Source: Terriglobia bacterium
Lineage (GTDB): Bacteria > Acidobacteriota > Terriglobia > Terriglobales > Acidobacteriaceae
Assembly: GCA_020073385.1 (NCBI GenBank)
Contig: JAIQFH010000044.1
Span: 1 to 64,000, forward strand
Length of the DNA stretch: 64,000 nucleotides
Direction of reading: 5' to 3'
A program made the translations under genes and the position numbers. How positions within the stretch are numbered: the stretch's first letter is position 1; each line of letters starts with the position of its first letter. Shown here piece after piece: positions 12,223 to 44,499 of the stretch. The notes under the pieces are model-generated. The model saw only the letters and a list, made by a program, of their open reading frames with translations, did no database searches and was not told the DNA's origin.

Positions 12223-12242
12223 ACTGTCCAGCAATGGACAGT
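12223..12242. promoter_or_regulatory. 20-bp palindrome, candidate upstream activator site for an NtrC-type regulator
   Basis: ACTGTCCA-GCAA-TGGACAGT, perfect 8-bp arms around a 4-bp centre. The TGTC-N8-GACA core resembles sites of NtrC-family activators. Its centre is about 128 bp upstream of the start predicted from the sigma-54 match, inside the usual 80-200 bp enhancer range. The cluster it precedes encodes an NtrC-type activator. Confidence 0.55.
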
Positions 12243-12333
12243 CCAATCTCCCAGCGAACATTTCGAGCATGCATCAGACACAACAACGTCATAGTATCGC
12301 CTTTGCTTTCAAAGATTTGATGGAAGCGCACGT

Positions 12334-12350
12334 TGGCCCTGAAGTTGCCA
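12334..12350 (+). promoter_or_regulatory. Sigma-54 (-24/-12) promoter match
   Basis: TTGGCCCTGAAGTTGCC fits the consensus TTGGCAC-N5-TTGC, with the obligatory GG (12335-12336) and GC (12347-12348) separated by exactly 10 bases. Predicted transcription start is about 12360, only about 3 bases before the adaptor ATG at 12363, so the transcript would be almost leaderless. The match has not been tested experimentally. Confidence 0.5.
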
Positions 12351-12362
12351 CATCGCAAGGTG

Positions 12363-13625
12363 ATGGATATCGCCCGCCCAGAGTTTAAGGAACGCAAACG
12401 TCGGCGCCAGATTGCCACGGCGGCCGTGGTCGTTGTCGTGGTAGCTGCCCTTACAATCGTCGTATATCGCCTTCGTCCCGCTGCGCCAACGGTCGAGCGC
12501 GGGACCGTCTGGACCGACTCGGTGAAGCGCGGCTCAATGTTACGCCAGGTACGCGGCATTGGATCCCTGGTGCCTTCGCAGGAATCCGTCTTGCAGATTC
12601 CCGCCGAGACCGAAGCCACCATTATTCGAATCCGGATGCTCCCGGGATCACTGGTGAACGCCGACAGCATTCTCGTCGAAATGAGTGATCCGCAGGTGGA
12701 ACAGGCAGCGGTGGACGCACATCTTCAATGGAAGGCGGCAGAGGCCGAGTATCAGAGCCAGCGCATGAAGCTGGAAAGCGACCTGATGAACCAGAAGGCT
12801 GGCGCCGCAACGGTGAAAGCCGACTACAACACGACGCAGTTGCAGTCGCAAACCGACAAGGCTCTGTACGATCTCGGCGTGATCTCCGGACTCGCCTATA
12901 AGGCTTCGAAGAGCAAGGCAGACGAACTCACCATCCGCAATGGACTAGAAGATCAGCGACTGGAGAGCACACAGAAAGCGATTGACGCGCAACTCGCGCA
13001 ATTGCAGGCCAAAGTCGACCAAATGCGAGTTCTGGCAGAGCTGAAGCAAAAACAACTCGATGCGCTGAAGGTCCGCGCCAAGATCGAAGGAGTTCTAGTC
13101 GAACTGCCGTTGCACGTAGGGCAGCACGTAACCCCCGGAACGATGCTGGCCAAGGTGGTGCAGCCTAATCATCTGATGGCGGAACTGAAAGTCGCCGAGA
13201 CCCAAGCACGGGATGTGCAGATCGGCGAACCGGCCTCGGTGGATACGCACAACGGAGTGATCGCCGGCTCGGTGATGCGGGTCGATCCCGGAGTGCAAAA
13301 CGGAACGGTAACCGTCGACGTCAAACTAGTAGGCGACTTGCCGAAAGGCGCCCGGCCTGACCTGAGCGTAGATGGCACGATCGATCTCGAGCGTCTGGAC
13401 AATGTGCTCTACGTGGGGCGTCCGGCATTCGGGCAGGAGAACAGCACAATCAGTCTATTCAGGCTTGACGGGGATGGGCGCGATGCGACGCGGGTCCCGG
13501 TGAAAGTGGGACGGGCTTCCGTCAATTCGATTCAAGTAATTGAGGGCTTGCACGAAGGCGACACGGTCGTGCTTTCCGACATGTCGCGCTGGGACAACAC
13601 CGACCGGATCCGGCTTCAGGATTAA
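12363..13625 (+). CDS. Periplasmic adaptor (HlyD/MacA-like membrane-fusion protein)
   Basis: Links an inner-membrane ABC permease to an outer-membrane channel. 420 residues from ATG 12363: a basic cytoplasmic start (MDIARPEFKERKRRRQ), one membrane helix (about 18-36), then lipoyl/barrel-sandwich halves around a long alpha-helical hairpin (about 105-235, rich in Gln/Lys/Ala), and a beta-barrel and membrane-proximal domain ending VLSDMSRWDNTDRIRLQD. I prefer this ATG over TTG 12333 because adaptors of this group commonly begin MDI-RPE and because 12333 lies inside the sigma-54 match; GTG 12360 is also in frame. It opens a cluster with ATPases, nine permeases and a TolC homologue, so it is probably their shared adaptor. 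Confidence 0.85.
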   Translation: MDIARPEFKERKRRRQIATAAVVVVVVAALTIVVYRLRPAAPTVERGTVWTDSVKRGSMLRQVRGIGSLVPSQESVLQIPAETEATIIRIRMLPGSLVNADSILVEMSDPQVEQAAVDAHLQWKAAEAEYQSQRMKLESDLMNQKAGAATVKADYNTTQLQSQTDKALYDLGVISGLAYKASKSKADELTIRNGLEDQRLESTQKAIDAQLAQLQAKVDQMRVLAELKQKQLDALKVRAKIEGVLVELPLHVGQHVTPGTMLAKVVQPNHLMAELKVAETQARDVQIGEPASVDTHNGVIAGSVMRVDPGVQNGTVTVDVKLVGDLPKGARPDLSVDGTIDLERLDNVLYVGRPAFGQENSTISLFRLDGDGRDATRVPVKVGRASVNSIQVIEGLHEGDTVVLSDMSRWDNTDRIRLQD

Positions 13626-13656: not shown

Positions 13657-14382
13657 ATGAGCGACGCTAGCCAACCACTCATTCAGATCACCGATATGAC
13701 GAAAGTCTTCTACACCGACGAAATCGAAACACACGCTCTGTCGGGCGTGCACCTTTCGGTCAACAAAGGCGAGTACGTCGCCATGTCAGGACCATCGGGC
13801 TGCGGCAAATCCACGCTGCTCTCGATTATTGGACTCCTCGACACTCCCACGGGCGGTCGATATTTTCTGAATAACAAGGCGGTGGAGAATCTGGATTTCG
13901 CTGAGCGGGCGCGCATCCGCAACCAGGAGATCGGATTCATCTTCCAGAGTTTCAACCTGATTGGCGATCTCACTGTCTATGAAAATGTCGAATTGCCACT
14001 GACCTACCGACAGCGTATGCCGAGCGCCGAGCGAAAAGGGCGCGTGATGGAGGCGCTGGAACGCGTGGGGATGGCACATCGCGTGAGGCATTATCCATCG
14101 CAACTGTCAGGCGGTCAGCAGCAGCGTGTCGCTGTGGCACGCGCACTTGGTGGAAAGCCCTCGATTCTGCTCGCTGATGAGCCTACGGGGAATTTGGATT
14201 CGCGCAACGGCGAGGCGGTTATGGAGTTGCTGGCCGATCTGCACCGCGAGGGCGCAACCATCTGCATGGTGACGCACGATCCCCGCTTCGCCAAGCACGC
14301 GCAGCGCGAAGTGCACCTGTTCGACGGGAAAGTGGTGGCCGAGGAAGAACTCAAGAAGCTGTTGGCGGATGTAGGCGCATGA
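13657..14382 (+). CDS. ABC transporter ATPase 1 (MacB/LolD type)
   Basis: Nucleotide-binding subunit that would drive the following permeases. 241 residues with all motifs intact: Walker A GPSGCGKS (45-52), Q-loop in FIFQSFNL, signature LSGGQQQR (150-157), Walker B ILLADEP (170-176), D-loop GNLDS and switch His207 in VTHD. It is close to the LolD/MacB/FtsE class that pairs with FtsX-fold permeases. Its stop codon overlaps the start of the first permease by 4 bp (ATGA), and it begins 31 bp after the adaptor, so co-translation with an ADOP-type permease is built into the sequence. Confidence 0.95.
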
Positions 14383-36515: not shown

Positions 36516-37226
36516 ATGATTCAGCTGAAACATCTTGAGCGCAGTTACAAAACGCCCGCCGGCCAGACTTGGGTGCTCCGGCGCGTCAATCTTGAAATTC
36601 GCGAAGGCGAATTCATCACCGTCATGGGGCCCTCTGGCGCCGGCAAGTCTTCCCTGCTGAATGTCCTCGCTCTGCTCGATGACGCATGGGAGGGCGAATA
36701 CTGGTTCCGCGAGGAGGCGGTTCACGCCTTGAAGCGCAAGCAGCGTGCGGAAGTTGCGAAGCGCAACGTGGGCATGGTGTTTCAGAGCTATCACCTGCTG
36801 GATGACCTCACGGTGCAGGAGAACATCGATCTTCCGCTCTCGTATAAGGATATTCCGCGCAAGGAGCGGCAGAGTCTGGTGGCCGACACGCTCGATCGCT
36901 TTCAGATCGTCGCCAAGAAGGATCTGTATCCCAGCCAGCTCTCGGGCGGGCAACAACAATTGGTTGGCATTGCACGCGCTGTCATCCACAAGCCGGCTCT
37001 GCTTTTGGCTGACGAGCCAACCGGAAATCTTCACTCGACACAGGCAAAGGAGATCATGGAACTCTTTCGAGACCTGAATCAGCAAGGAACAACCATCGTG
37101 CAAGTGACGCACTCAGAGACGAATGCGGCGTACGGAAGCCGCACCATTCAGCTACGTGACGGCTGGATGGTCGGGGATACAGCCAATCCTGGGCTCTCTC
37201 AGCCGGCGGAGGTAAGCGCATCGTGA
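36516..37226 (+). CDS. ABC transporter ATPase 2
   Basis: 236 residues, same broad class as ATPase 1 but clearly a different subfamily. Walker A GPSGAGKS (38-45), Q-loop VFQSYHLL, signature LSGGQQQL (142-149) with Leu where ATPase 1 has Arg, Walker B LLLADEP, and switch His in VTHS. The D-loop reads GNLHS instead of GNLDS, so the D-loop Asp is replaced by His173. Walker B Glu is kept, so hydrolysis should still be possible. It might pair with ATPase 1 as an asymmetric dimer or serve a subset of permeases; neither can be decided here. Its stop overlaps the TolC-like start by 4 bp (GTGA). Confidence 0.94.
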
Positions 37227-39157
37227 GCTTACATCCCAGAAATGGCAGGGTGATCGCCGCCATCGTGAGCATCGAATTCATTCTGTGCTTCTGCTCATTG
37301 GCCCAAGACCAGACGGCGTCATCTACACAGACCAGCGGGACGCAGCCGGACGCAGCCGTGAACTTCGAGATGCCGAAATCGCACAATCCTCTGAACGCGT
37401 ACACCCCAGATTCGGTCCCTGAGCCTGCCCTGTCGAATTCTCCTCATCTTGAGCAGTTGGTGCGTGATGGCAAGCTTTACCTTTCTTTGAAGGATGCCAT
37501 TGATCTCGCGCTTGAAGACAATCTCGATCTGGCCATCGCTCGCTACAACCTGCCCATCGCGAACACAGATATCCTTCGTACCAAGGCGGGTGGATTCTTT
37601 CGTGGGGTCAACACTGGTGTGGTTCAGGGAACACCAGGCGGAGGTGTTGGCGGATTTGGCACTGGCGCTCCCGGCGCGGGCGCGGGCGGCACTACCGGAG
37701 GCGCAGGCGGCGCAGGAGCTGGCGCTTCCGGACTCGTGCAGTCGACCCTTGGCGCCGGGACAGCGGTCTCGTCCTACGACCCGGCGATTCTTACCTCGAT
37801 CGGCGCCGAGCATCAGACCACACCCCTCGCAAACCTTCAGATCTACGGCGTGCCATCCCTGCAGTTGAACACCGGTTCAAGCACAATAGAATTCCAACAA
37901 GCCTTTCCCACCGGCACCAGCGTCAGCTTCCAGTTCAATAACAACCGCCAGACTAACAATAGCCCGTTCTTCTTCCTCTCGCCGTCCAACAACTCGATGT
38001 TTCGCTTCTCGTTCCAGCAACAACTGCTGGCAGGTTTTGGATTCGGCCCCAATCTGCGTTATCTGCGAATCGCACGCAATAATAAGCGGATCTCCGACAT
38101 TGCTTTCAAAGACCAGGTCATCGCTACAGTCACACAGATTGAAAACATATACTGGGACTTGGTCAGCGCCTATGAGCAGACTCGCGTCAACGAGCAGTCT
38201 TTCGCATTCGCCCAGCAGACGCTGGAGAACACAAAGAAGCAATTGCAGTTGGAAAGTGTCCCCACCATGGAGGTCATGCGGGCCGAAGCTGAAGTCTCTA
38301 AGCGTGCCCAGGAGTTGACCGTCGCCCGGACGAATCTTCAACTGCAAGAAACTCTCATGAAGAATGCCGTTACGAAGAGTCTCGACGACCCGGTACTGGA
38401 ATCGATGCCAGTGGTCCCAACCGACGAACAGACACAGCCTGCACCGATTGAGGCGATGAAGCCGATAGCAGGCTTGATCGCAGACGCGCAGCACAATCGC
38501 CCTGAACTTGCTGAGTCAGACATCGACCTCGTAAACCGCCAGATCAGCCGGCGCGCTGCTCGCAATGCCCTGCTGCCGTCCCTTTCGCTAGTGGGCTTTT
38601 ATGGTGGCTCCGGACTCGCGGGTCCCCTAAATCCTCTGTGCCAGGACTGCACTTCGAGTGTCCCTGTCGATTTCTCGGGAGCCCTCAGAAATGCCTTCAA
38701 TAATTCTTCTCCCGATTACTATATTGGGCTGAACTTGAGTATCCCCATTCGTAACCGTGTCGCGAAGGCAGATCAGTACCGCTCCGAGTTGGAGTATCGC
38801 CAGTCAGAGTTACGCTTGGAACAACTGAAGAAGCAGGTTCGGATCGAAGTGCGCAACGCACAATACGCTCTGGATCAGACCGGAGCGCGAGTTGAGGCGG
38901 CCCGGAAAGCGCGCGATCTGGCACAGCGCACTTTTGATATCACGAAAAAGGAACAGGAACTCGGCGCTGGCTCCAGCTATCAGACGCTTTCTGCACAGCG
39001 TGATCTCGCGTTGGCAGAACTTGATCTCGTAGGCGCGATGACTACATATCAGAAAGCGAAAGTCGAATTGGATCGCGCTACCGGCACAACCTTGGAACAT
39101 AATGGCATACTGATTCAGGACGCAATCAGCGGAGTGGTCTCCCACCACACGCCCTAA
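37223..39157 (+). CDS. TolC-family outer-membrane efflux channel with glycine-rich insert
   Basis: Would form the outer-membrane duct for the adaptor and permeases upstream. 644 residues from a GTG that overlaps the ATPase 2 stop; signal peptide to about residue 28. Two outer-membrane-efflux repeats: LSLKDAIDLALEDNLDLAIARYN (first half) and later LVNRQISRRAARNALLPSLSL, each followed by long helices (AYEQTRVNEQSFAFAQQTLE; KKQVRIEVRNAQYALDQTGA). It is longer than classical TolC (about 470 mature residues), mainly because of an N-terminal extension and a low-complexity Gly/Ala segment (about 138-170: TPGGGVGGFGTGAPGAGAGG and on). The insert is coded by GC-rich quasi-repeats and lies near the first helix-to-strand transition. 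Confidence 0.88.
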   Translation: MSLHPRNGRVIAAIVSIEFILCFCSLAQDQTASSTQTSGTQPDAAVNFEMPKSHNPLNAYTPDSVPEPALSNSPHLEQLVRDGKLYLSLKDAIDLALEDNLDLAIARYNLPIANTDILRTKAGGFFRGVNTGVVQGTPGGGVGGFGTGAPGAGAGGTTGGAGGAGAGASGLVQSTLGAGTAVSSYDPAILTSIGAEHQTTPLANLQIYGVPSLQLNTGSSTIEFQQAFPTGTSVSFQFNNNRQTNNSPFFFLSPSNNSMFRFSFQQQLLAGFGFGPNLRYLRIARNNKRISDIAFKDQVIATVTQIENIYWDLVSAYEQTRVNEQSFAFAQQTLENTKKQLQLESVPTMEVMRAEAEVSKRAQELTVARTNLQLQETLMKNAVTKSLDDPVLESMPVVPTDEQTQPAPIEAMKPIAGLIADAQHNRPELAESDIDLVNRQISRRAARNALLPSLSLVGFYGGSGLAGPLNPLCQDCTSSVPVDFSGALRNAFNNSSPDYYIGLNLSIPIRNRVAKADQYRSELEYRQSELRLEQLKKQVRIEVRNAQYALDQTGARVEAARKARDLAQRTFDITKKEQELGAGSSYQTLSAQRDLALAELDLVGAMTTYQKAKVELDRATGTTLEHNGILIQDAISGVVSHHTP

Positions 39158-39163
39158 ACAATC

Positions 39164-40573
39164 ATGCCCACGTCAGTCAAAACCGGAGACGAAGTCACGC
39201 TGTCCCGGCCAGACTCCGGAGCGCCCATCCGGATTCTGGCCGCGGATGATCAGGAACATATTCTCGACGCTTTGGAGTTCCTCCTTCGTCCGCAGGGATA
39301 CCGCGTCGACAAGGCCCGCTCTCCTGTATTGGTGCGCGAGGCTTTGAAGAGCACTTCCTACGACGCCATCCTCATCGATCTGAATTACACCCGAGATACT
39401 ACGTCCGGGCAGGAAGGACTCGATCTGCTCTCGGAAATCGTGGCAGTCGATGCCACCGTTCCCGTCATCGTCATGACCGCCTGGGCCAATGTTGAACTGG
39501 CGGTCGAAGCGATGCGCCGTGGCGCCCGCGACTTTGTGCAGAAACCTTGGGAGAACGAACGCCTGGTATCGATTTTGCGAACACAGGTGGAGTTACATCG
39601 AGCGCTGCAGCACGCCGCACGTCTGGAGGCCGAAAACCGCCTGTTGCGTGCAGAGGGCCGTCCGGAGTTTCTTGCGACTGCGCCCGCGATGCAGGCTGTT
39701 CTGGAAACGATCGCACGGGTCGGGCCCTCTGATGCCAACGTCCTGATCACCGGCGAGCACGGGACTGGCAAAGAAGTTGTGGCGCGTACCTTACATGCGC
39801 TCTCCGCGCGCGCATCTCGCTCTCTGGTAGCGGTAAATACGGGTGCAATTCCAGACGGAGTGTTTGAGAGCGAGTTGTTTGGCCACGTTAAAGGCGCATT
39901 CACAGACGCGCGTACCGACCGCATTGGCCGGTTCGAACTCGCTGACGGCGGCACAATTTTTCTGGACGAGATCGGCAACGTTCCCCTTCGCCAGCAAGCC
40001 AAGCTTCTGCGTGTTCTTGAGTCTGGCGAGGTGGAGCGGGTGGGTTCCTCCCGCTCGCGCCGCGTGAATGTGCGCGTGCTTTCCGCCACCAACACGGACC
40101 TCCCCGCCGCATGCCAGGCGGGACAATTCCGTGAGGATCTTCTTTTTCGGCTAAATACCGTTGAGGTTCGGGTTCCGCCACTGCGTGAAAGACGCGAGGA
40201 CATCGCTTTGCTGGGGGCGCATTTCCTTGCGCGTTATGCCGCGCGATACCGGCGTCCAGTGCAGAGATTCGATACGGCGGCATTGCAAGCGATGATGCAA
40301 TACTCCTGGCCTGGAAACGTGCGGGAATTGGAACACACGATTGAGCGGGCCGTACTAATGAGCCGCACGCCGGAGATCCAGCCCGCCGATCTCTCGCTGA
40401 GTTCTCCTCGCGCTCAGACTCAGAACCTGGAAGACCTCAGCCTTGAGGCGGTGGAAGCGGTCTTGGTGCGCAAGGCGCTGCAGCGGTTTCAGGGTAACGT
40501 CAGCCAGGCGGCGGAAGCGCTGGGCTTGAGCCGCGGCGCGCTTTATCGGCGCATGGAGAAATATGGGCTCTAG
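39164..40573 (+). CDS. NtrC-family sigma-54-dependent response regulator
   Basis: 469 residues. Receiver domain (23-140) with acidic pocket Asp28-Asp29, phospho-acceptor Asp72, Thr105 and Lys127. AAA+ domain (170-400) with Walker A GEHGTGKE (197-204), the sigma-54 contact loop as GAFTDA (244-249; the family consensus is GAFTGA), Walker B GTIFLDEI and arginine-finger region FREDLLFRLN. A Fis-type helix-turn-helix ends the protein (GNVSQAAEALGLSRGALYRR). It starts 6 bp after the TolC gene and overlaps the kinase gene by 11 bp. The candidate enhancer palindrome and sigma-54 promoter in front of this same cluster make autoregulation of the whole operon likely (inference). Confidence 0.95.
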   Translation: MPTSVKTGDEVTLSRPDSGAPIRILAADDQEHILDALEFLLRPQGYRVDKARSPVLVREALKSTSYDAILIDLNYTRDTTSGQEGLDLLSEIVAVDATVPVIVMTAWANVELAVEAMRRGARDFVQKPWENERLVSILRTQVELHRALQHAARLEAENRLLRAEGRPEFLATAPAMQAVLETIARVGPSDANVLITGEHGTGKEVVARTLHALSARASRSLVAVNTGAIPDGVFESELFGHVKGAFTDARTDRIGRFELADGGTIFLDEIGNVPLRQQAKLLRVLESGEVERVGSSRSRRVNVRVLSATNTDLPAACQAGQFREDLLFRLNTVEVRVPPLRERREDIALLGAHFLARYAARYRRPVQRFDTAALQAMMQYSWPGNVRELEHTIERAVLMSRTPEIQPADLSLSSPRAQTQNLEDLSLEAVEAVLVRKALQRFQGNVSQAAEALGLSRGALYRRMEKYGL

Positions 40574-42008
40574 CCCCATTGCTCCGAAGCCAAACCGTCC
40601 CCGAAAACGTACCCGCCTTCTCTATGAACATCGCATCAGCTTGTATTCTTTCCTGGTCGCGCTCCCCGCTCTTCTAGTGAGCACAGTCCTCGTGTGGATG
40701 CAGCCTTGGAGCACCAGCTCTCGGCTGGCTCTGACGGGCGCTGAACTCTTTGTATGGTGGCTGCTCGCTCTCGCACTCCAGGAGCAAACCACACGACCTC
40801 TGCAGACGCTGGCCAACGTCATCGGATCGCTGCGCGAGGAAGACTACTCATTCCGTGCCCGCAATGCGACCGCAGACGACGCGCTCGGCGAGCTTTCTCT
40901 TGAAGTAAATGCATTGGCCGACATGCTTTCTTCGGAGAAAGTGCGCACGATTGAAGCAACCGCGCTGTTGCAGCGCGTGGTCGATGAAATCGATGCTCCT
41001 TTATTCGCATTTGATCCCGCTACGCAGTTACGTCTGGTGAATCCCGCGGGCGAGCACCTGCTTCGCCAAAACAGAATTCGAATGATGGGGCGCAAGGCAA
41101 AAGAACTGGGGCTGCACGAATGTCTCACTGCGACTAACGAGACCGTCGTCGAGCTCAATGTCGGTGAGTCGCAGGTGCGCTGGCTCTTGCGGCGGAGTTC
41201 CTTTCGACAGGCTGGCGTACCTCACACTCTCGTGGTGCTATCCGATGTGAGTCGAGCACTTCGGGAAGAGGAGAGACGTGCCTGGCAGAGACTGATTCGA
41301 GTACTGGGCCACGAACTGAGCAATTCTCTCGCGCCCATTAAGTCGATTGCCGGAAGCCTCAGCTCGCGGGTTCAGTCAACCGACATCGATCCCGCCGTGC
41401 GCAGTGATCTCCAGCGAGGGCTTGAGATTATCGAGACGCGCTCAGCTTCTCTGCAACGCTTTCTCGAGGCATACCGCAAATTGGCTCAGATGCCAAAACC
41501 CAATCTGAAAGATGTCCCGCTGGGCGCTCTCGTCTCGCGTGTGGCGGCTCTTGAGGTGCGGGTTAAGGTGTGTGTGAGGGAGGGACCGGAGGTCATTTTT
41601 CAGGCCGATCCCGATCAACTGGAGCAGATGCTGATCAACCTGATCCGGAATGCCGCCGACGCGGTTCTGGAAAATACCGACGCCGCAGCGAAAGAGCCAT
41701 GCGAACCAGGAGCTCTCACGCAAGTGGCTGACGTCATAGTTCGCTGGGATGCTGATGCGAATCAAGTCATGCTGGCCATTGAAGACCAGGGACCGGGGCT
41801 CCTGAATCCCGCCAATGTGTTCACGCCCTTCTACACAACCAAACCGAACGGAAGCGGCGTAGGTCTGGTTCTATGCCGGCAGATCGCGGAAGCCCATGGC
41901 GGTTCGATCGAAATCAGCAATCGGCAAGACAGCCACGGCTGCCTGGTCAAGGTTGTACTGCCGAGATCAGCATACAGCTCGACACCGCAGACTAATTTCC
42001 GAAACTGA
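40563..42008 (+). CDS. Membrane sensor histidine kinase, partner of the NtrC-type regulator
   Basis: 481 residues. Two membrane helices (about 27-47 and 56-74) with almost no periplasmic loop between them, so the signal is probably sensed in the membrane or cytoplasm. A HAMP-like segment (78-130) and a PAS domain (131-230) follow. Phospho-acceptor His250 lies in RVLGHELSNSLAPIK, an H-box of the NtrB/NtrY-like type. The ATPase motifs are the N-box NLIRNAADAV, G1 EDQGPG, FTPFYTTK, and G2 GSGVGLVLC. The start lies inside the regulator gene (11-bp overlap). It closes the 15-gene cluster. No intrinsic terminator is seen behind it. Confidence 0.93.
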   Translation: MGSSPIAPKPNRPRKRTRLLYEHRISLYSFLVALPALLVSTVLVWMQPWSTSSRLALTGAELFVWWLLALALQEQTTRPLQTLANVIGSLREEDYSFRARNATADDALGELSLEVNALADMLSSEKVRTIEATALLQRVVDEIDAPLFAFDPATQLRLVNPAGEHLLRQNRIRMMGRKAKELGLHECLTATNETVVELNVGESQVRWLLRRSSFRQAGVPHTLVVLSDVSRALREEERRAWQRLIRVLGHELSNSLAPIKSIAGSLSSRVQSTDIDPAVRSDLQRGLEIIETRSASLQRFLEAYRKLAQMPKPNLKDVPLGALVSRVAALEVRVKVCVREGPEVIFQADPDQLEQMLINLIRNAADAVLENTDAAAKEPCEPGALTQVADVIVRWDADANQVMLAIEDQGPGLLNPANVFTPFYTTKPNGSGVGLVLCRQIAEAHGGSIEISNRQDSHGCLVKVVLPRSAYSSTPQTNFRN

Positions 42009-42016
42009 CGTCAGTT
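42003..42016. repeat. 14-bp perfect palindrome across the kinase stop codon
   Basis: AACTGAC-GTCAGTT, with no central spacer; it includes the TGA stop. Without a loop or T-run it is not a normal terminator and looks more like a protein-binding site. It could also be a chance palindrome. Confidence 0.3.
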
Positions 42017-42062
42017 CACACTTCTGCTTAGCTGCGGAAGCAGTCCCGCGTTCGTGAAAATA

Positions 42063-42407
42063 TCAGGGGCGCTGACGAACCTCAGCCGCCATGCCTGCCG
42101 ACTCGCTCGCAACTGGGCGACGTGGCGGAAGTGGGTTGGTTCCAGCCGGCGGCCGGCGCTCGATGATTCCGATGACCGGAGCCTCGTTCAGTCCGTCGAC
42201 ATAGGGTAGAGAAGCAAATACCTGCTCGCTGCACATGCGGTCGATCATGCGCTGCTGCCGTCCGCTGAGAACGGCGTGAGGGAGAATCGGAAAATTGCGG
42301 AACACCCACAACAGATATACCCGCTGGAGGAATGATGGCATTATGTAACGCGGCCCGATGGGTGTCTGCACCTGCACCACACCGGCCGCCAGTTTGTCTA
42401 TCAACAT
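42063..42407 (-). CDS. Small conserved protein of unknown function
   Basis: 114 residues. I do not recognise a named domain. The centre (GPRYIMPSFLQRVYLLWVFRNFP, then LSGRQQRMIDRMC) is well ordered: one aromatic-rich hydrophobic helix followed by an amphipathic helix. It resembles short proteins I associate with acidobacteria near PilZ or two-component genes, but that is memory rather than a search. The C-terminal 25 residues are Pro-rich and probably unstructured. It is convergent with the kinase gene (54-bp gap) and downstream of the PilZ gene on the same strand. Confidence 0.55.
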   Translation of the reverse strand: MLIDKLAAGVVQVQTPIGPRYIMPSFLQRVYLLWVFRNFPILPHAVLSGRQQRMIDRMCSEQVFASLPYVDGLNEAPVIGIIERRPPAGTNPLPPRRPVASESAGMAAEVRQRP

Positions 42408-42618
42408 ACTGGGCCCGTCCGTATCCTAAGTTTGGCCAGAGCAATTCTAGGGCCGCCATTATTGCACCGCTAGGGATGCAAGGGAAGCCTTTTTTTCACA
42501 GCTTCAACCAGACTTCATCGGCAAATCGAGCAGTAGATTTTAGGACCGTGCATTTTTGGGGTTGCGGGGGCGTGATCTTGCACGCACGCCACTGGGGCAA
42601 ATCGCCCCGAACCGCCCG

Positions 42619-42948
42619 TCAGACAGCTACTTCGGGGAGGATGTCCATACGGCGGATCTGGGCAGCCACCCCGAAGTCGGAGCCCTGTTCCTCGACCCGG
42701 ACAATGGTCGCCTGGCAGCAGACCCAGCACTTCTCGCCGGAGGTCAGTTCGGGTGGGAGGATTAGAACCAATTCGACGTCGGCTCCCTTCTCCATCTTCG
42801 AATTGGTATAGAGGAAGACGCCGTTTGCGCTGACGTCGCGGGTTTCGGCCGTGTGATCGATGCCCTTCGTGGTGCGGACACGTGTGGAGACACGCGTGGG
42901 GATTCTGGTTCCAGAGCGACGCTCGCCGTCGGGCTTCATAGGGCTCAC
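42619..42948 (-). CDS. PilZ-domain protein (probable c-di-GMP receptor)
   Basis: 109 residues, essentially one PilZ domain. The c-di-GMP contact motifs are present: RxxxR as Arg11-SGT-Arg15 and DxSxxG as Asp38-Val-Ser40-AN-Gly43, followed by beta-strands (GVFLYTNS, DVELVLILP, KCWVCCQATIVRVEEQ). Two vicinal cysteines (WVCC) are unusual but not part of the motif. The start is uncertain: GTG 42948 or ATG 42939, with no clear ribosome-binding site for either. The partner that it would control is unknown; a GGDEF enzyme that could supply the ligand is encoded at 55716-57563. Confidence 0.82.
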   Translation of the reverse strand: MSPMKPDGERRSGTRIPTRVSTRVRTTKGIDHTAETRDVSANGVFLYTNSKMEKGADVELVLILPPELTSGEKCWVCCQATIVRVEEQGSDFGVAAQIRRMDILPEVAV

Positions 42949-43035
42949 AAATGGCCCACTAACTCTACACCAAGCCGGGCGATTGGACGAGGGGTTCCGG
43001 GCTCCAAGTTGCGGAGCCCGGATTCGGAGCGGTGG

Positions 43036-44499
43036 TCAGATATTGGGGCGCTTCGAGCGAGCGGCCGGAACGACCAGAGCCTGTTCCATGGTCGGCATGT
43101 TGTTGCCGCGGAGTTTGGCTTCGGCTGCATGTAACTTCTCGGTCTGCATCGTCTGGTAGTAGGCCTGAACCAGCAGTTCCATGGTGAAAGGATTGTCCTG
43201 ATCCTCTTCCAGGCGCGCGATGGCATCTTCGTACTTCTTCTCATCCATCAGGAGCGTTCCCGCGGCTCCGTTGTAGGAGCTTTGGATCACGCGGTTGCGG
43301 CTGCCGTTGGCCATGGCTTCCAGATGCTGCAAGGACTTGTCGGCGAGCGGCTGATTCCCGGCGTGCGCAGCATGCACGACACGGTTGCGCAAAATGCGTG
43401 AGAGCTCTTCCTCGCGGTCTGAAATCGAGATGGTGGAGCGATGATCCAGTGATTCTTCGGCCAGCTTGAGATGCCTGAGCGCGACGTTGTCGTCAGCCTG
43501 ATACTCGGCCATATGCCGCAGCGCCTGCGCTTCCTGCAGATCGTGATTCTTGGCGTGAGCGGACTCAGCGATCTGCTGGAACTGCCGGTCGGCTTCAGCG
43601 TAGTTGCCGTCGCGGACGTAGGTCATCGCCTTCTGCATGGCATAGGTCAGGCGATCGGCTTCGTTGTGGGCGAAGCGAATGGCCTTGTCATACTCGATGC
43701 GAGCCTGCTCCTGATTGCCCATCAGCGCGTAGGTGTCGCCGAGACCGAGTTGCGAGGTCACGAAGTCCGGGTCCATCTTGAGCGCGGCGCGATAGTGGGC
43801 CAGGGAACTCTCGAAATCGCCGGCCATGCGTTTCAGTTCGCCGTAGGAATCCTGCGGATTGGGCTCTTTCGGAAGCAGGGCGACGTAACGATCCATCGCC
43901 TCAAACGCCTTGTCGAATTCGCGGTTGCGCGCTTCGACATACGCCAGATCGTTGAGCGCAGCGGGATAATTCTTGTCGATCGTAAGCGCGTGCTCCATCA
44001 TGTGACGCGCATGATCGTTACCGTTCTCTCCCATCAGCCAGTTGCCGGCGAGGTAGTACAGATGCTTGTCGCGGGGATACATGGCGAGCATGTCGTTCAT
44101 CGCCGTGATGCCGCCGAGGAAGTCTCCTTCTTCGACTTTGACGATCCAGGCAACCATCAACTGTTCGCCGGGAGTGGTCCTGGAAGCAAGATCTTTGGCC
44201 TTGGCGCGAGCTGCGCTGACTTCCTGAGGATTGCCGCTGTTGAATGCGATCCAGGCCCAAGCGACGGCGAGATTGGGATCTTCTTTCACCGCGGCGCGCC
44301 AGTCGTCGTTGCAGCGCTCAAGGTAAAGATTCTCGTAATCTTCCATGCCCTTGACGTAGAGCCCGCGGGCTTTGGCGGACGAAGTCGTGATCGGCAACGT
44401 GGCGGACTTAGCAGGCTTGGCACCGTGCGCAAACAGCGGCAGGGCGAACAAAGCGACAGCCAGGACTGCACAGGACTTCGATAAAAGAGCGCGGCGCAT
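43036..44499 (-). CDS. Exported TPR-repeat protein
   Basis: 487 residues with signal peptide (about 1-26, ending FAHGA). The body is a run of tetratricopeptide-like helical pairs, clearest at YLAGNWLMGENGNDHARHMM, YPAALNDLAYVEARNREFDK, ALKMDPDFVTSQLGLGDTYA and AEADRQFQQIAESAHAKNHD. No catalytic domain is visible, so it is probably a periplasmic scaffold or assembly factor. The ATG has GGAG 8 bases upstream. The PilZ gene follows 87 bp downstream on the same strand. Confidence 0.82.
   Translation of the reverse strand: MRRALLSKSCAVLAVALFALPLFAHGAKPAKSATLPITTSSAKARGLYVKGMEDYENLYLERCNDDWRAAVKEDPNLAVAWAWIAFNSGNPQEVSAARAKAKDLASRTTPGEQLMVAWIVKVEEGDFLGGITAMNDMLAMYPRDKHLYYLAGNWLMGENGNDHARHMMEHALTIDKNYPAALNDLAYVEARNREFDKAFEAMDRYVALLPKEPNPQDSYGELKRMAGDFESSLAHYRAALKMDPDFVTSQLGLGDTYALMGNQEQARIEYDKAIRFAHNEADRLTYAMQKAMTYVRDGNYAEADRQFQQIAESAHAKNHDLQEAQALRHMAEYQADDNVALRHLKLAEESLDHRSTISISDREEELSRILRNRVVHAAHAGNQPLADKSLQHLEAMANGSRNRVIQSSYNGAAGTLLMDEKKYEDAIARLEEDQDNPFTMELLVQAYYQTMQTEKLHAAEAKLRGNNMPTMEQALVVPAARSKRPNI

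Follow-up and report, generated by a model that had tools for sequence, protein, structure and literature searches.

An exporter operon that ends in its own two-component pair

The 64,000-nt stretch of DNA analyzed here (the window) holds an exporter operon whose last genes encode a regulator and a kinase. What switches this operon on, and does the reach of the switch extend to other genes? The window belongs to an 8.2-Mb genome; judged by the adaptor gene, its nearest named relatives are Terriglobales-type Acidobacteria, and several of them are labeled Candidatus Sulfotelmatobacter. All 15 genes of the operon lie on the + strand (12363–42008) with intergenic gaps of –11 to +31 bp. They encode, in order, an HlyD-type adaptor, an ABC ATPase, nine ADOP permeases, a second ATPase, a TolC-type channel and, as originally predicted, an NtrC-type response regulator and a histidine kinase (Table 1). 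Each of the nine permeases (contig C129) gives a full-length match to TIGR03434 above the family cut-off of 622.3 bits. Among relatives, the start of the adaptor gene is kept as [AG]TG-GAY-ATH. No terminator-like site was found at 41900–43100. At three loci (L080, L085 and L087), the regulator–kinase pair lies upstream of the adaptor gene and not at the operon end.

Table 1. Positions of the regulatory elements and operon genes in the window
Feature	Position	Strand	Basis or remark
Upstream activator site 1, ACTGTCCAGCAATGGACAGT	12223–12242	.	Perfect 8-4-8; core TGTCC-N6-GGACA at 12225–12240
Degenerate activator site 2	12245–12260	.	Right half GAACA at 12256–12260, 20 bp after the GGACA of site 1
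IHF-like site, TTTCAAAGATTTG	12307–12319	+	WWTCAAN4TTR
Sigma-54 –24/–12 promoter, TGGCCCTGAAGTTGCC	12334–12349	+	GG-N10-GC
Predicted transcription start	12360	+	Inferred: usual spacing of 12 nt counted from the –12 C
HlyD/MacA-type periplasmic adaptor	12363–13625	+	Pfam HlyD_D23; start ATG (MDIARP)
ABC ATPase 1, MacB/LolD/DarD type	13657–14382	+	Domain-model matches
Nine tandem ADOP family duplicated permeases	14379–36494	+	TIGR03434, full-length
ABC ATPase 2	36516–37226	+	Domain-model matches
TolC-type outer membrane efflux protein	37223–39157	+	Pfam OEP
NtrC-type response regulator: receiver, AAA+ with GAFTDA, Fis-type HTH	39164–40573	+	PF00072, PF00158, PF02954
Histidine kinase, two predicted membrane spans and short loop	40563–42008	+	Domain matches, hydropathy

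A palindrome and a sigma-54 promoter are conserved ahead of the adaptor gene

The original prediction placed a sigma-54 promoter and an upstream palindrome in front of the operon. The 8-4-8 palindrome is indeed perfect, and its center (12232.5) lies ~128 bp before the predicted start at 12360. Ten bases separate the GG (12335–12336) and the GC (12347–12348) of the promoter, as claimed. The further claim of ten matching consensus bases did not hold: by our own scoring, 9 of the 12 positions of TGGCACG-N4-TTGCW match, which makes the site a mediocre one. In the window, 27 GG-N10-GC sites score 9 or more, the promoter included, and five perfect 8-4-8 palindromes occur, activator site 1 among them; we therefore rejected the palindrome alone as statistical evidence. 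The exact core TGTCC-N6-GGACA is found eight times in the genome, about the chance level. With the frequencies of both elements near chance, the case made by this single sequence is weak.

Relatives provide the stronger case. By adaptor homology, 65 loci (L011–L074 and L086) were grouped as Terriglobales-type; their labels vary, several reading only Acidobacteria or Acidobacteriales. The comparison table omits L030, L044, L051 and L086, whose matches are partial or whose contigs are short; L030, where 316 bases precede the match, could have stayed. Three more do not enter the counts: L034, whose start region is rearranged, and L049, with a run of N in the promoter, both of which retain the palindrome, and L038, which lacks the motif. 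All 58 usable loci carry the core with at most two mismatches: 35 have it intact, 21 differ at one position and 2 at two. All 58 also have, after the palindrome and near the start codon, a GG-N10-GC element scoring at least 7; at random positions in these loci, such an element lies 28–32 nt upstream in 1.8% of cases, and at ATG triplets in 2.2%. A footprint kept in 58 of 58 loci makes the elements significant despite their chance-level frequency in the single sequence. In L034 (9900–10070), the adaptor start and promoter region are seemingly deleted while the palindrome and second half-site remain, a layout that reflects either an assembly error or a rearrangement.

We also scanned 298 genomes of the order for a strict composite of palindrome, 67–97 bp and TGG-N9-TGC. 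It is present in 135 genomes, and a mirrored control in 9 (read off the table). The genome set overlaps contigs that were listed separately, duplicates being removed only in the analysis of start contexts. A looser composite (TGG-N10-TGC with TGTYC/GRACA) was discarded, as its spacing is wrong and it misses the window itself; it matched 46 of 150 genomes, many with TGTTC...GAACA cores. Lack of conservation in related genomes had been named as evidence against the original prediction; what we find is conservation of both elements, which confirms the observation of palindrome and promoter.

The palindrome has a weaker companion. A GGACA-like half (4–5 of 5 bases) stands at an offset of exactly 20 bp in 43 of 59 sequences, window included. 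One genome, G039 (L189 and L225–L228), has perfect tandem palindromes 21 bp apart and several composite places, two of which are on overlapping opposite stretches of one contig. In the planctomycete loci L078 and L083, inspected by eye, GGGATCG..ATCCC palindromes replace TGTCC..GGACA ~150–165 bp before the adaptor start, and a good sigma-54 promoter is followed by a Shine–Dalgarno-like leader.

Could the palindrome act in RNA, as a hairpin with a GCAA loop that serves as terminator or attenuator of the upstream gene? A perfect 8-bp stem and, in the window's own genome, a GNRA-like loop would suit such a role. Yet the middle bases differ from relative to relative, genes of different kinds follow the same core, the spacing between palindrome and promoter is constrained, and no run of T follows the palindrome in the window. 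We consider this reading extremely improbable and rejected it.

The activator site is shared with scattered ADOP permease genes

The original prediction saw a closed circuit in which the kinase would sense the exported compound or envelope stress and the regulator would fire its own operon. That the operon carries site, regulator and kinase stands; the circuit was drawn too narrowly, since the site also precedes scattered ADOP and receiver-SpoIIE genes. We took up 90 composite sites, with the first 60 of the listed places that had no locus fetched for this purpose; L197 was not re-found, leaving 89, and an overlapping second match of L189 was left out of the set. These sites precede adaptor genes (33), ADOP permease genes (41), receiver-SpoIIE genes (3), a kinase-like gene (1) or nothing recognized (11). 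Every one of the 78 sites with a recognized downstream gene is in a genome with an ortholog of the regulator. The 11 others divide into 7 in such genomes and 4 in genomes without the regulator. ADOP genes were called with one ADOP of the window as query, and 31 of the 41 align from near the N-terminus. The other 10 align by inner or C-terminal stretches only; for the four of these that were scanned, the N-terminal halves alone give 464–505 bits on TIGR03434.

The scan of the genome for the palindrome before other ADOP genes, proposed with the original prediction, turned up three ADOP loci outside the operon, one with an exact core (C43:4360) and two with one mismatch (C55:81801 and C22:14048). 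A two-mismatch site 894 nt before an ADOP gene on C117 was left out of this count. The three are among 18 ADOP matches of the genome outside the operon that were checked, 17 of them lying over the TIGR03434 cut-off and one just under it. ADOP permeases are called orphan because members lack neighboring ATPases. In the ~1.5-kb flanks of these three loci and of 12 ADOP loci in other genomes, no homologs of ATPase 1 or the adaptor of the operon were found. The third composite match of the genome is L007 (C116:49794, reverse).

Activator site and sigma-54 promoter are also shared by a receiver-SpoIIE phosphatase gene of the same genome (C90:102215 onward; L005:1501–2822). Its receiver is 53% identical to that of the operon regulator, and DLNYTRDT is common to both. 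This suggests that one kinase may feed both a transcription branch and a phosphatase branch.

The operon regulator co-occurs with the site

The regulator passes the cut-offs of its three Pfam models. The GAFTGA motif is absent from it, loop L1 reading GAFTDA; variants of this kind occur in other NtrC-family members. We assign it to the family because the receiver, AAA+ and HTH domains are present, despite the altered loop. Among 35 orthologs examined, 33 have GAFTDA, also outside Acidobacteria; L087 has GAFTGA, and in L066 neither was found (L052, a 45% paralog, was left out of the count). The HTH stretch LGLSRGALYRR is identical in the window and in all 28 Terriglobales-type orthologs covered to their end.

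At a threshold of E ≤ 1e-150, an ortholog is present in 178 of 296 genomes. It is found in 123 of 135 motif-positive versus 55 of 161 motif-negative genomes, the common total being taken as 296 (the composite scan covered 298 genomes, the ortholog search 296). Hence the strict composite is absent from 55 of the 178 regulator genomes, and the regulator from 12 of the 135 motif genomes. At the operon promoter, this co-occurrence is partly due to linkage. Conservation and co-occurrence strongly support the predicted ensemble of sigma-54 promoter, upstream activator site and self-encoded activator. From the co-occurrence we infer that the operon regulator binds the palindrome.

When alignments of every length are counted, the regulator has 41 matches in the genome, of which the next in rank is 41% identical, and with so many NtrC-type paralogs the pairing of regulator and site is statistical. 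Promoter and sites could thus be real and the palindrome be bound by another NtrC-type activator, the operon regulator acting elsewhere. The paralogs and the 12 motif-positive genomes without an ortholog fit that possibility. Against it, the 41 ADOP and 3 receiver-SpoIIE sites are all in ortholog genomes, though only 178 of 296 genomes have the ortholog, and the sites found in genomes without it are 4 of the 11 unclassified ones. Moreover, wherever the flank of a Terriglobales-type locus extends to the ortholog (29 of 29 loci), the ortholog lies downstream of the adaptor gene and on the same strand. We regard binding by another activator as improbable, and the operon regulator as the better candidate.

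The kinase of the window has two predicted spans and a loop of ~11 residues, too short for a periplasmic ligand-binding domain to be likely. By simple hydropathy, 23 of 32 orthologs have exactly two spans, with loops of 4–17 residues, and the other 9 have one or three. More likely, the signal would be sensed within the membrane or by way of a partner transporter.

Gaps between activator site and promoter fall into groups

In nif-type promoters, an IHF element lies between activator site and promoter, and the consensus for IHF is WATCAANNNNTTR. An IHF-like block, WWTCAAN4TTR on either strand, starts 27–29 nt before T(-26) in 23 of 59 sequences versus 0.36 expected from order-1 resampled sequence, an expectation that flatters the match count because the motif was formulated after the loci had been seen, with its second base loosened. 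In L072, the block keeps its place though the activator site is much closer. Two groups of relatives have it on opposite strands, a departure from usual NtrC-family promoters. Four HU/IHF-family proteins are encoded in the genome, and none of the four scores above an IHF cut-off; the best fits IHF-beta at 111.2 bits (cut-off 115).

For 33 adaptor and 41 ADOP sites, with 67–97 bp searched, 69 of 74 gaps between palindrome and promoter measure 69–72, 80–84 or 88–95 bp. The gaps outside these groups are 74, 74, 76, 78 and 97 bp, and gaps of 50 bp and 53 bp were seen at one other locus and one further site of the window's own genome. A period of 10.5 bp is not specifically favored in this set of non-independent lineages: adaptor sites fit better at 11.5–12, and ADOP sites equally well at 9.5–10.25. 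The grouped gaps are consistent with a face-of-helix constraint but do not prove one.

The sigma-54 element sits next to the adaptor start codon

The original prediction was silent on the closeness of the promoter to the start codon. Of 81 unique contexts, the window among them, 80 have a distance of 28–32 nt from T(-26) to the adaptor start (40 nt in L042), and the predicted leader is 2–6 nt in those 80. In the window, the predicted transcript begins GTG-ATG, with both triplets in frame. The operon mRNA probably starts within 2–6 nt of the adaptor start codon, in which case translation of the first gene would be of the leaderless type.

Comparison of Shine–Dalgarno matches points the same way. 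Before the adaptor, these are no longer than in shuffled sequence (81 unique contexts). For ADOP genes of the regulon, the distance from T(-26) to the start is 34–206 nt (measured in 31 of 41), and their matches are longer than those of the adaptors (Mann–Whitney p ~2e-12, for 28 unique ADOP start contexts, one of which reads GAC and is misplaced and others of which may be a few codons off). These data suggest a conserved, sigma-54-driven leaderless mRNA for the adaptor.

Additional in-frame start codons weigh against this reading. The conserved M/V-D-I is the sole in-frame start between promoter and homology in 23 of 33 adaptor sites, and another in-frame start lies upstream in the other 10; two further ones are in frame in the window, GTG (12360) and TTG (12333). 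GTG serves as the start in 4 of 81 adaptor contexts, a point against leaderless translation. Close spacing of promoter and start is not confined to adaptor genes, since the C90 receiver-SpoIIE gene starts 28 nt after T(-26), with GGAGG adjoining its ATG.

Outside the Terriglobales type, four of four gammaproteobacterial loci have 27 nt from T(-26) to the start. The corresponding distances at two planctomycete loci are 38 and 44 nt, and both loci have Shine–Dalgarno-like stretches. Such stretches are also present in L075, L079 and L081 (labeled Vicinamibacterales or Vicinamibacteria), where no such promoter was found at that place; L081 has a weak match at 47.

An ordinary leadered operon would offer a simpler account: a promoter upstream of 12334 would give a longer leader, and the short sigma-54 leader would be incidental. 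There is room for such a promoter in the 223 bp between the end of the upstream neighbor gene (12139) and the start codon, and basal expression of regulator and kinase would be needed before induction. However, it leaves unexplained why adaptor Shine–Dalgarno matches stay at the shuffled level, unlike those of regulon ADOP genes, and why the 28–32 nt spacing is held so strictly. We judge a leadered operon unlikely, if less so than the involvement of another activator. 

More broadly, we tentatively propose, at slightly less than even confidence, a conserved class of sigma-54-driven leaderless mRNA: in exporter operons of this family from Terriglobales and some Gammaproteobacteria, an enhancer-dependent promoter would be fused to the adaptor start codon, such that the chassis would be leaderless and the dispersed permeases under the same regulator Shine–Dalgarno-initiated.

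A model for control of the operon and its regulon

Taken together, the evidence very probably reflects an enhancer-dependent sigma-54 promoter, controlled by the operon's own kinase–regulator pair, that serves both the operon and a regulon and has a probably leaderless first gene. In this model, the histidine kinase would phosphorylate the NtrC-type regulator, which would bind two sites in tandem ~128 bp before the start, the strong palindrome and, 20 bp farther on, the weak one. An IHF- or HU-type protein may bend the DNA between these sites and the promoter, and the looped regulator would then open RNA polymerase at the –24/–12 element. Transcription of the 15-gene exporter operon would include regulator and kinase, giving positive autoregulation; such a loop would need some basal expression from another promoter. 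The same site elsewhere would co-activate scattered ADOP permease genes and the receiver-SpoIIE gene. As the site is common to several loci, one switch could supply both a chassis (adaptor, ATPases and outer-membrane channel) and interchangeable permeases.

Discussion

Each part of this system is of a known kind: the enhancer-dependent sigma-54 promoter, the NtrC-type activator, the ADOP permeases and the MacAB/DarBCD-like exporter. In the available part of PMC7057263, sigma-54 promoters with NtrC-family activators are described as having a –24/–12 element and an activator site 100–150 bp upstream; the present locus likewise has the element, an upstream activator site and an NtrC-type AAA+ activator. 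Unlike the usual NtrC-family promoter, the one described here abuts the start codon, and its activator loop is GAFTDA.

Adaptor, ATPase and MacB-type permeases recall MacAB-TolC and DarBCD, and DarD is the best model for both ATPases. In the proteins scanned, none of the DarB, DarC, DarD and MacB models reached its cut-off (DarC, 70.2 of 450 bits; DarD, 244.4 and 245.7 of 375; DarB, at most 37.2 of 700 in four permeases). Unlike those systems, the operon has nine permeases, two ATPases and sigma-54 control. Compared with ADOP permeases in general, those of the window are encoded together with ATPases, adaptor, channel and regulator in one operon, and scattered members share the activator site.

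The kinase invites comparison with Bce modules (BceRS–BceAB), in which, in the part of that literature available, intramembrane-sensing kinases signal with ABC transporters. Here too a two-span, short-loop kinase is encoded with large-loop FtsX/MacB-type permeases, and this likeness makes sensing through the transporter or the membrane our preferred guess. Unlike Bce, the system has a tripartite exporter and an NtrC-type regulator with sigma-54, and contact between kinase and transporter is putative.

Leaderless mRNAs have been recognized in maps of transcription start sites as those that start at or within a few nucleotides of the start codon (portions of PMC3616915, PMC4842269, PMC3847290 and PMC5243855), as is predicted here. 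All leaderless starts described in the available text of PMC3616915 are AUG. The leaderless promoters in the corresponding parts of PMC4842269 and PMC3847290 are of –10 types; PMC4842269 found an extended –10 motif before leaderless genes and itself says that promoters specific to such genes have not been described. The promoter here is –24/–12 and is kept across an order. PMC3616915 and PMC5243855, in the parts available, report leaderless starts as well as sigma-54 promoters, and individual cases in which the two coincide may be contained in their supplements.

Open-access literature, a scope outside which most subscription papers fall, yielded no earlier report of the system under sigma-54 with leaderless, ADOP, sigma-54 with MacB operons or acidobacterial sigma-54 regulons. 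As far as these searches tell, two features appear new: a binding site and regulon by which scattered ADOP permeases would be linked with a chassis operon, and the conserved placement of a sigma-54 promoter right before a start codon.

If the model is true, the large acidobacterial family of ADOP permeases gains a predicted regulator with its binding site and regulon, and the shared activator site would tie some of the orphan permeases to the chassis operon. Named strains of Edaphobacter (E. lichenicola, loci L053–L056) and Granulicella (Granulicella sp., L061), which share the layout of the window, would offer a clear test case for sigma-54-dependent leaderless expression. Should the promoter indeed be fused to the start codon, impairment of canonical initiation would not stop production of the adaptor, and the exporter would be put together from a common chassis and lineage-specific permeases under one two-component switch.
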